Origin: Mesorhizobium loti
GTDB taxonomy: Bacteria; Pseudomonadota; Alphaproteobacteria; Rhizobiales; Rhizobiaceae
Assembly: GCA_002356515.1 (NCBI GenBank)
Contig: AP017605.1
Location: 124,001 to 188,000, forward strand
Direction: 5' to 3'
DNA length: 64,000 nucleotides
The notes beneath the pieces were generated by a model. It ran no database searches, had not been told where the DNA came from, and saw only the letters and a list, made by a program, of their open reading frames with translations. Each line of letters starts with the position of its first letter. Position 1 is the stretch's first letter. The position numbers and the translations under genes were made by a program. This document shows, one piece after another, positions 28,754-32,343 of this stretch.

Positions 28754-28828
28754 TCCCCCGGAACCGTCACGTCCATCATGCGTTGGACCATTGACGACCG
28801 CGCATCGATGCGCCCGGAGGATATTTCG

Positions 28829-29215
28829 ATGTCAGACAGCAAGCGGATCACGGCGAGCAAGGAAGAGTTGCTCGAACTCGAAAAAGGGTTCTGGACAGGG
28901 GACGAGGCCTACTACGCGGCCAATGCCGACACGGAATGCCTGGTGGCATTTCCGCAAATGGCAAAGGCGATGGACAATGCCGATCTGGCCAAGACCGCAA
29001 CCAAGCCCAACCGCTGGCGCGATCTCGATATCGAGCTCAAGGGAATCATCGAACCGGGCAGTGATATCGTCATGCTGACCTACGAGGCGCATGCGACTCG
29101 GGAGAATGGCGACCCTTACGCGGCGCTGGTCAGCACCGGCTATGTCCATCGTGTCAACGGCTGGAAGATGATGTTCCATTCGCAGACGCCGCTGGAGGCT
29201 GCAGCGAAGACCTGA
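28829..29215 (+). CDS. NTF2-like (SnoaL/DUF4440-type) protein
   Basis: A 128-residue cone-fold protein: KEELLELEKGFWTGDEAYY, CLVAFPQMAK, DIELKGIIEPGSDIVMLTYEAHATRENG and ALVSTGYVHRVNGWKMMFHSQTPL. The pattern fits DUF4440-type NTF2-like proteins, which bind or convert small molecules or act as stress proteins. The ATG at 28829 has GGAGGA about 9 nt upstream. It converges on the sigma-1.1-like gene with 25 bp between stops. Confidence 0.8.
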   Translation: MSDSKRITASKEELLELEKGFWTGDEAYYAANADTECLVAFPQMAKAMDNADLAKTATKPNRWRDLDIELKGIIEPGSDIVMLTYEAHATRENGDPYAALVSTGYVHRVNGWKMMFHSQTPLEAAAKT

Positions 29216-29240
29216 TCATCTGGGTGGTCCGGCGGATCGT

Positions 29241-29423
29241 TTACTCGGTGATACGTATCCCATGCTCGGAGAGAGCAGCCAATATGTCTTCAATCTCGGT
29301 CGAACTGAATTCACGTTTGGGAAGCAGTTGGTCGAGCTGACCCATTGTGGCGTCTCTGCCCTTTGTGATCAGCGCTTGAACAATCGGCTGCATATCCGCT
29401 CGAAGGTGGATTTCGCTCGACAT
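29241..29423 (-). CDS. Stand-alone sigma-70 region 1.1-like small protein
   Basis: A 60-residue acidic protein that matches region 1.1 of primary sigma factors along most of its length. It has ALITKGRDATMGQLDQLLP followed by FSSTEIEDILAALSEHGIRITE, next to the RpoD pattern (K)RGYVTMDELNSVLP...TSEQIEDTMSMLSDMGINVIE. No region 1.2-4 follows, so it cannot be a sigma factor. In full-length sigma, region 1.1 is a DNA mimic occupying the RNA polymerase channel; a free copy could act in trans, which is inference. GGAGAG precedes the ATG by 6 nt. It starts 13 bp after the aat stop and is the last gene of the aroQ-accBC-aat run. Confidence 0.8.
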   Translation of the reverse strand: MSSEIHLRADMQPIVQALITKGRDATMGQLDQLLPKREFSSTEIEDILAALSEHGIRITE

Positions 29424-29436
29424 CGAAGCTCTCCGG

Positions 29437-30054
29437 TCACGGAAAAAAGATCGCCTCGCCCTTCAACGCATCGGCGAGCATCTTCTCATACTTGCCGCGT
29501 GGCACGTCGACGGCGCCAAAGCGCTTGAGGTGCTCGGTGGTGAATTGGGTATCAAGTAGCGCGAAGCCGCGCGCCTTCAAGCGTTCGACGAGATGCACGA
29601 GGCAGATCTTCGACGCATCCGTCTCCTTGGAAAACATGCTTTCGCCGAAGAACACCCGTCCGAGTGACACACCATAGAGGCCGCCGACCAACTGGTCCTC
29701 ATGCCAGGCCTCGACCGAATGGCAGTGGCCCATGCGGTGTAGTTGCACATAGGCCTCGCGGATCGGCGCGTTGATCCAGGTCGAGCGCCGCTCCTCGCGC
29801 TTTTCGGCGCAACCGTCGATCGTGGCCTCGAAATCGAAGTCGAAGCGTATGTCGAATGGGCTTTTGCGGATCGCTTTCTTCAGGCTTTTGGGTGTGTGGA
29901 ACCCGTCGAGCGGGATGATGCCGCGCGTCTCCGGCCGGACCCAGAAGACTTCCGGGTCGTTGGCGCTTTCGGCCATCGGGAAGACGCCCGAGGCATAGGC
30001 CTTGAGCAGGAGGTCGGTGGGGATGCGATAGCCGGGTGCGTAGGGACGGGTCAT
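29437..30054 (-). CDS. aat: Leucyl/phenylalanyl-tRNA-protein transferase
   Basis: Aat attaches Leu or Phe to proteins with N-terminal Lys or Arg, marking them for ClpS/ClpAP degradation (N-degron pathway). The 205-residue protein has the family pattern: [79 protein letters not shown] and [21 protein letters not shown]. Separated from accC by 12 bp, so probably co-transcribed. Confidence 0.95.
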
Positions 30055-30066
30055 CGCGTCCCCGGA

Positions 30067-31410
30067 CTATTCTTCCTTGGCCAGGTATTTTTCCAGCCAA
30101 TGGATATCATAGTCGCCATTGGCGATGTCGGCATTGCCGACCAGATCGCGAAACAGCGGCAAGGTTGTCTTGATGCCATCGACGACGAATTCATCCAGCG
30201 CCCGCCTCAACCGCATCATGCACTCGACGCGGTTGCGCCCATGCACGATCAGCTTGCCGATCAGGCTGTCGTAATAGGGCGGGATCTTGTAGCCGGAATA
30301 GACGCCGGAATCGACGCGGATGCCGAGACCGCCCGGCGTGTGGAAATGGGTGATGGTGCCGGGTGAGGGGGTGAAGGTGCGCGGATCCTCGGCGTTGATT
30401 CGGCATTCGATGGCGTGGCCATTGAACTTGATGTCTTCCTGCTTGACCGAAAGACCGCCACCGGAAGCGACGCGGATCTGCTCATGCACGAGATCGATGC
30501 CGGTGATCGCTTCCGTCACCGGATGCTCGACCTGCAGGCGCGTGTTCATCTCGATGAAATAGAACTCGCCATTCTCGTACAGGAACTCGATCGTGCCGGC
30601 GCCGGAATAGCCGAGATCGGCGATGGCTTTGGCGCAGATGCCGCCGATGCGGGACCGCTCCTCGGCGTTGAGCGCCGGCGAATTGGCCTCTTCCCAGACT
30701 TTCTGGTGGCGCCGTTGCAGCGAACAGTCGCGTTCGCCGAAATGCACGCCGCGGCCAAAGCCGTCGCCGAACACCTGCACTTCGATATGGCGCGGCTTCT
30801 GCAGGTACTTTTCGATGTAGACGGCGTCGTCGCCAAAAGCGGCGCCCGCTTCCGTGCGCGCCGTCTGCAAGGCGACCTCGAGGTCCTCCTCGGTGAGTGC
30901 AACCTTCATGCCACGGCCGCCGCCGCCGGCCGAGGCCTTGATGATCACGGGATAGCCGATTTCGGCAGCAATGCGCTTGGCTTCCTTCTCATCGGTCACC
31001 GCGCCGTCGGAGCCGGGCACCACCGGAATGCCGAGGCGCTTGGCGGTGCGCTTGGCCTCGATCTTGTCGCCCATAATGCGGATATGGTCGCCGGACGGGC
31101 CGATGAAGGTGATGTTGTGCGCGGCCAATATGTCGGCGAACTTGGCATTCTCCGACAGAAAGCCGTAGCCTGGATGCACGGCGTCGGCGCCGGTGATCTC
31201 GCAGGCCGCGACGATCTGATGGATGTTGAGATAGCTGTCGCGCGATGGCGGCGGGCCGATGCACACGCTTTCGTCGGCGAGCCTGACATGCATGGCGTCG
31301 GCGTCGGCGGTCGAATGCACCACCACCGTCTGGATGCCGAGTTCCTTGCAGGCGCGAAGCACCCGAAGCGCGATTTCGCCGCGATTGGCGATGAGGATCT
31401 TCTGGAACAT
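30067..31410 (-). CDS. accC: Acetyl-CoA carboxylase, biotin carboxylase subunit
   Basis: AccC carboxylates biotin on AccB using ATP and bicarbonate, the first half-reaction of malonyl-CoA formation. The 447-residue protein begins [20 protein letters not shown] and has the ATP-grasp glycine loop [10 protein letters not shown], the [14 protein letters not shown] segment, [16 protein letters not shown] and [12 protein letters not shown]. Length is standard. It follows accB by 10 bp in the aroQ-accB-accC-aat operon. Confidence 0.97.
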
Positions 31411-31420
31411 CCGGCCCGCT

Positions 31421-31882
31421 CTACTCGATCACGACGAGCGGCATGCCGTATTCGACCGGCGTCGCGTCCTCGAACAGGATCGCCGTCACCGTGCCGGCGC
31501 GCGGCGAGGGGATCTGGTTCATCGTCTTCATCGCCTCGATGATCAGCAGCGTCTGGCCTTCCTTGACCTTCTGGCCGACCTCGATGAACGCCTTGGCGTC
31601 GGGCGACGGCGCCAGATAGGCGGTGCCGACCATCGGCGAGGTGACCGCGTTCTTCGATACGTCGACCGCTGCCGGGGCGGCCGCGGCAGCGGGCTGGGCA
31701 GCTGCCGCCGGCGCATAGCTGGGCTGGGGGGCTGCAATCGCGTGGACGGCAGGTGCCTGCCGCGACACGCGCACCTTCAAGTCACCCAGTTCGACCTCGA
31801 TTTCGGTCAGGTTGGTGTCATTCAGTATGCCCGCCAGATCGCGGATCAGTTGCTGGTCAACACCGGTCTTCTTTATCGACAT
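31421..31882 (-). CDS. accB: Acetyl-CoA carboxylase, biotin carboxyl carrier protein
   Basis: A 153-residue BCCP. N-terminal [31 protein letters not shown], an Ala/Pro-rich flexible linker (about 55-85), and a C-terminal biotinyl domain with the biotin lysine in EAMKTMNQ (Lys119, 34 residues from the end). The start at 31882 matches the family and has AAGG upstream. An in-frame ATG at 31912, ten codons earlier, overlaps the aroQ stop as ATGA and could serve for coupled translation, so the N-terminus is not certain. Confidence 0.94.
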
Positions 31883-31908
31883 TTTCGAGCCTTCTGTTTG
31901 TTGGCCGG

Positions 31909-32343
31909 TCATAGGCGTGCGGCCAGCGCCTGTAGCGCCAGCGTGTAACCGAGCGGCCCAAAGCCACAGATCATGCCGACGGCGACCGGCGCGACCATGG
32001 AGACGTGGCGGAATGATTCCCGCGCATGGATGTTGGAAAGGTGAACTTCGGCGACCGGCAGCGGCGCAACCGAACGGATGGCGTCGTGGATCGCGATCGA
32101 GGTGTGGCTGTAGGCACCCGGATTGATGACGATGCCGGCGGCCTTGTCGCCGGCTTCCTGGATCCAGTCGACGAGATCGCCCTCATGGTTCGACTGGCGG
32201 AAATCGATCTCGAGCCCGAGCGCCGTGCCGGCCTGCTTGCAGTCGTCGGCGATCGCGGCAAGCGTCTTGCCGCCATAGATGCCCGGCTCGCGCTTGCCGA
32301 GCGCGTTGAGATTGGGACCGTTCAGGACGAAAACCGTTTTCAA
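31909..32343 (-). CDS. aroQ: 3-dehydroquinate dehydratase, type II
   Basis: AroQ dehydrates 3-dehydroquinate to 3-dehydroshikimate in aromatic amino acid synthesis. The 144-residue protein has the type II motifs [19 protein letters not shown] (active-site Tyr), [46 protein letters not shown] and [11 protein letters not shown]. The start codon is TTG at 32343; the family begins here and no ATG fits. It heads the acc operon. Confidence 0.95.

Follow-up and report, generated by a model that had tools for sequence, protein, structure and literature searches.

In a 64,000-nucleotide stretch of Mesorhizobium loti DNA (contig AP017605.1, positions 124,001 to 188,000; hereafter the window), we analyzed an open reading frame (ORF) at 29241..29423 on the minus strand that encodes a stand-alone protein of the sigma-70 region 1.1 type; this region is known as one component of primary sigma factors. 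Running from an ATG start to a TAA stop, the ORF yields a product of 60 amino acids, MSSEIHLRADMQPIVQALITKGRDATMGQLDQLLPKREFSSTEIEDILAALSEHGIRITE, and its identification draws on Pfam, an RpoD profile, the ratio of nonsynonymous to synonymous substitution rates (dN/dS) and an AlphaFold2 model. An earlier note on this DNA had described a region-1.1 gene of its own, 13 bp after aat and preceded by the Shine-Dalgarno motif GGAGAG, which our analysis confirms: the protein matches PF03979 (Sigma70_r1_1) with 27.8 bits against a cut-off of 22.5 bits (E 2.5e-6), residues 14-60 aligning to positions 6-55 of the 81 in the profile, and no other family exceeded its own cut-off in the Pfam scan. Nine of ten relatives scanned also pass the PF03979 cut-off, with P0002 falling below it at 21.2 bits. 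A profile built in this analysis from region 1.1 of Hyphomicrobiales RpoD gives the ORF 31.5 bits, against at most 9.4 bits for 2000 shuffles; when the same profile was run on the 1138 window frames of at least 30 codons, the frame containing the ORF received 30.8 bits and the next one 1.9 bits. The source genome holds one full rpoD elsewhere (C1:2275329, 86.1 bits), the ORF being the only other match over the cut-off, and the two proteins are identical at 19 of 58 ungapped positions. Regions 1.2-4 are absent from the 60-residue product and the extra DNA at the site measures only ~205 bp, which sets the ORF outside the group 1 sigma factors.

The ORF closes a tightly spaced minus-strand gene row of the order aroQ-accB-accC-aat-ORF, with successive gaps of -4, 10, 12 and 13 bp, whose upstream genes were confirmed by NCBIfam: aroQ, type II 3-dehydroquinate dehydratase (31909..32343, TIGR01088), accB, biotin carboxyl carrier protein (31421..31912, TIGR00531), accC, biotin carboxylase subunit (30067..31410, TIGR00514) and aat, leucyl/phenylalanyl-tRNA--protein transferase (29437..30054, TIGR00667). 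The Shine-Dalgarno motif lies at 29429..29434 on the same strand, 5 bp before the ATG; the exact GGAGAG occurs in four of the seven intact carriers described below and one-base variants in the other three. On the far side, the site is bounded by a convergent plus-strand gene of 145 codons (28778..29215) that has no Pfam or NCBIfam match and that is presumably NTF2/SnoaL-like, as judged by eye.

In the AlphaFold2 model the ORF product forms three helices (residues 9-21, 27-33 and 41-53), and its top two matches in the PDB are sigma-1.1 domains, both weak. The protein resembles RpoD region 1.1 of group 1 sigma factors (PF03979; 2k6x, 5mww, 7ye1) in sequence family, predicted three-helix fold and span of the globular domain, but differs in being a separate gene without regions 1.2-4 and without the acidic linker, and in having lost half of the acidic sites. 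It stops where the acidic linker of RpoD would begin.

The ORF is a real gene under purifying selection. Among the seven intact Mesorhizobium carriers, pooled dN/dS is 0.24, and variable columns are distributed over codon positions 1/2/3 as 22/12/38. Comparison with the divergent copy of G156 gives a dN/dS of 0.06-0.16, at nearly saturated synonymous sites. In this same genome (locus L040), dS is 1.2-3.6 for the ORF and 0.4-0.8 for aat, which hints at a separate history of the ORF.

Within Mesorhizobium, the full 60-codon ORF is present in 7 of 146 genomes and in all seven has aat on one side and the same convergent gene on the other. An eighth copy, in M. huakuii NBRC 15243 (L065:5001-5180), is a pseudogene: codon 45 is an in-frame stop and the Shine-Dalgarno is altered; another M. 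huakuii entry (P0006) is intact. We compared these loci with the region downstream of aat in 60 of the 139 non-carriers, 20 of them chosen as nearest by aat and the rest picked by hand, and found the ORF after aat in none of the 60. The gap between aat and the convergent gene, corresponding to 29216..29436 in the window, is 223-235 bp in 8/8 carriers. Among non-carriers the convergent gene was located in 56 of 60, and 55 of these 56 have a gap of -1 to 87 bp; for the remaining one, 1023 bp was measured from a partial match. Hence, carriers hold ~205 bp of additional DNA, close to the size of the ORF and its Shine-Dalgarno. As such an insert is too small for a sigma gene, the ORF is not a decayed sigma gene; signs of a decayed full sigma gene were among the findings that, according to the earlier note, would overturn its reading.

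In Mesorhizobium the ORF is thus accessory, and its position in the genome is fixed. On an aat tree of 68 rows (8 carriers and 60 non-carriers), the carriers do not form one group, requiring six changes, at least four of which are forced by well-supported branches, yet they are still more clustered than in most shuffles (9/500 as low). Furthermore, the G+C content at third codon positions (GC3) in the seven intact carriers is 0.57-0.63 for the ORF vs 0.76-0.84 for aat. These data fit a gain at one site, followed by spread or loss through recombination.

A tree of region 1.1 (42 rows, 58 columns) has few columns and long branches; on it the 12 RpoD pieces group together (91/97; 94% of bootstraps). 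The Methylobacterium proteins form a group of their own (100/100), the Bradyrhizobium group is weak (71/59), and the Mesorhizobium proteins are placed, weakly supported, close to Methylobacterium. Because the RpoD pieces group apart, the stand-alone proteins did not arise by recent copying of the rpoD in their own genomes; for the ORF, such an origin is further rejected by the identity of 19 in 58 positions to its own RpoD and by the near-invariance of Mesorhizobium RpoD region 1.1 in the loci read. Judging from the sequences, a single origin of the stand-alone proteins is possible.

A length-limited profile search returned 709 short proteins with E <=0.001, a number that may include fragments at contig ends; the 120 matches listed among these 709 measure 50-122 residues, and many of the named ones among them are called 'RNA polymerase sigma factor region1.1 domain-containing protein'. 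The earlier note's supposition that short region-1.1 proteins might already be annotated was therefore right, under an automatic domain-based name. Being short, under selection and restricted to region 1.1, the ORF belongs with these stand-alone proteins, and those annotated in Mesorhizobium, Bradyrhizobium and Methylobacterium are of the same kind, with no function in the names seen. The Methylobacterium proteins differ from the ORF in length (~98 residues), in neighbors and in an extra N-terminal helix that is predicted and conserved (L161-L167, L181-L184). They occur as one match each in 88 of 111 genomes, 23 having none; this genus and Bradyrhizobium were recognized from protein names. Downstream of their gene a class II DAHP synthase is found in 9 of 11 distinct loci, the exceptions being L181 and L182, whose flanks did not show it. 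Upstream, a molybdopterin oxidoreductase is present in six of the seven loci with 5-kb upstream flanks. In Bradyrhizobium, at least 46 of 195 genomes have one or more short copies, and 68 have at least two matches with rpoD included; in this count some open frames are long and starts are as called by frame only. At least two short copies are seen in some Bradyrhizobium genomes (G556, G575). The gene is followed by glycogen phosphorylase (glgP) in 10 of 15 distinct Bradyrhizobium loci (including L157, L158 and L169-L176). Since many loci have only 1.5 kb of flank, these neighbor counts may hide more cases. AroQ and DAHP synthase are both enzymes of the shikimate route; no other pathway common to aroQ-accBC-aat and the neighbors in other genera is apparent.

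As to conservation in related genomes, whose lack would have refuted the earlier note's reading, stand-alone relatives are present in Bradyrhizobium and Methylobacterium, few Mesorhizobium genomes carry the gene and the neighbors differ. The note's further suggestion, that the operon position ties the protein to malonyl-CoA or N-degron gene expression, is unsupported, as is any operon-specific role: there are few carriers, the sites after aat in the 60 non-carriers are empty and the gene has other neighbors in other genera.

What might an isolated region 1.1 do? In sigma itself, region 1.1 compacts the free protein and hides its DNA-binding determinants, and in the holoenzyme it acts as a gate in the DNA channel (extract of PMC4598750), and its removal raises thrABC transcription ~32-fold (extract of PMC6970531). 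A separately encoded, sigma-1.1-like domain also forms the N-terminus of the Firmicutes delta subunit (RpoE), where it binds RNA polymerase between the jaw and the shelf and serves as the anchor of an acidic tail in competition with nucleic acid (extract of PMC7749165). This tail, a disordered C-terminal region of net charge -47, has no equivalent in the ORF product, which ends after the domain, and no delta family was listed by Pfam for the ORF, in a scan that may filter weak matches. Gp2 and Ocr of phage T7, small inhibitors of RNA polymerase, make use of sigma-1.1 or of the DNA channel (extract of PMC7064336); no relation between them and the ORF was seen.

Our best guess from the sequence is that the protein modulates RNA polymerase or sigma in trans, as the earlier note had supposed. 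Specifically, we favor, tentatively and at a little short of an even chance, that the ORF product is an isolated sigma-1.1 domain acting in trans on the transcription machinery. It would dock on core RNA polymerase where sigma-1.1 sits or close by, on the rim of the main channel, or alternatively on the jaw/shelf surface, the site that the N-terminal domain of delta uses in Bacillus. Docking could then shift the ejection of sigma-1.1, the formation of the open complex or the competition of RpoD with sigma factors lacking region 1.1, and the effect would probably be modest and dispensable. The description of region 1.1 as an acidic DNA mimic is weakened for the ORF product: its net charge is -4 and its isoelectric point 4.97, but it keeps an acidic residue at only 6 of the 12 positions that are acidic in the RpoD core, and it lacks the acidic linker, which in RpoD contributes a net -14 over the next 60 residues. 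Because linker, tail and half of the acidic positions are absent, modest competitive docking on RNA polymerase or RpoD appears preferable to strong DNA mimicry.

This loss of acidity also counts against the proposed action on the transcription machinery, and so do several other observations. In delta, competition for the main channel comes from the acidic tail, not from the sigma-1.1-like domain (extract of PMC7749165). Structural scores are modest, and in the VIA re-ranking two entries of one uncharacterized mycobacterial protein, 3ol4 and 3ol3, scored a little higher than 5mww, within tie range. Pooled constraint is weaker on the ORF than on aat (dN/dS 0.24 vs 0.07), and two close carrier pairs show values near 1 (1.03 and 0.93). 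Finally, 139 of 146 Mesorhizobium genomes do without the ORF, and in one M. huakuii strain it has decayed to a pseudogene.

Other explanations were weighed as well. The protein might act on free RpoD instead of the core enzyme, holding the DNA-binding regions of RpoD in trans in an anti-sigma-like manner; it belongs to the sequence family of region 1.1, which does the corresponding work in cis on free sigma (extract of PMC4598750), but RpoD's own tethered copy would presumably need displacing, and we consider this route quite unlikely. Repurposing of the domain outside transcription initiation, as a small regulator or partner of a neighboring metabolic enzyme or of another nucleic-acid protein, strikes us as unlikely: the sequence profiles point to RpoD, neighbors differ between genera with no common pathway apparent, and the gene is missing from most of the genus Mesorhizobium, as counted above.

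A horizontally moved accessory gene of little or no benefit in Mesorhizobium, now being lost, would account for the low GC3 relative to aat, for the scatter of carriers over the aat tree with its forced changes and for the pseudogene in L065. It is rather improbable, given the purifying selection over a near-saturated synonymous distance to G156, the partial clustering of carriers and the high conservation of the Methylobacterium relatives. The ORF is short and rare in the genus, as a truncated sigma-gene remnant or a chance ORF would be; this last explanation is so improbable as to be in effect refuted by the size of the insert at empty sites, the divergence of the ORF from a near-invariant RpoD region 1.1, the separate grouping of the RpoD pieces on the tree and the codon-position bias.

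Beyond the single protein, the Hyphomicrobiales may possess a family of free sigma-1.1 domains that serve as a gate in trans, either as a checkpoint for sigma factors lacking region 1.1 or as a rival of RpoD's tethered copy, and that retune sigma competition. We regard this wider proposal as doubtful; if true, it would give the alphaproteobacteria a counterpart of Firmicutes delta, reached by freeing the sigma domain itself. Genes that encode region 1.1 alone would offer a natural way to test the domain's action in trans, and would point to RNA polymerase modulators of a class not yet recognized among plant-associated bacteria. For experiments, the Methylobacterium protein is a better subject than the Mesorhizobium one. 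No study of stand-alone region-1.1 proteins surfaced in the open-licence literature, seen in part, to which our search was confined. The domain and the automatic protein name were already known; what this analysis adds is how the gene is distributed, where it is inserted and that Methylobacterium has a single-copy form.

Other origins and readings of the ORF were also considered. An RNA element was rejected, no Rfam match reaching the gathering threshold and the folding z-score being -0.53. Phage origin was dismissed since tblastn with the protein as query gave no match at E 10 or better in 50,697 phage records, and plasmid origin since seven plasmid records matched, all below 60% identity, three with an annotated rpoD under the match and four with no annotated feature.

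Wider surveys of the order, the class and Bradyrhizobium are based on the matches listed, so that short copies can be missed, and those of the class and Bradyrhizobium used a Bradyrhizobium-type alignment that may miss divergent forms. Within the order sample of 397 genomes, 17 had at least two matches: the source genome, 8 genomes of Methylobacterium, 4 of Bradyrhizobium and, outside these genera, G325, G504, G500 and G519. We dropped G325 and G504 as stand-alone genes, as they look like contig-end or frame-broken rpoD. On re-searching 16 of the 17, the second matches of G500 and G519 fell below the cut-off; the second match of G359 (Methylobacterium) lies in a 294-residue frame, not of the short type, and the third match of G452 in one of 557 residues. 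The class sample (385 genomes) had two matches in the source genome, G260 and G1181 among the matches listed. At L159:3170-4525, a divergent Bradyrhizobium stand-alone copy lies next to a gene on the opposite strand that resembles biotin carboxylase (49% to accC).
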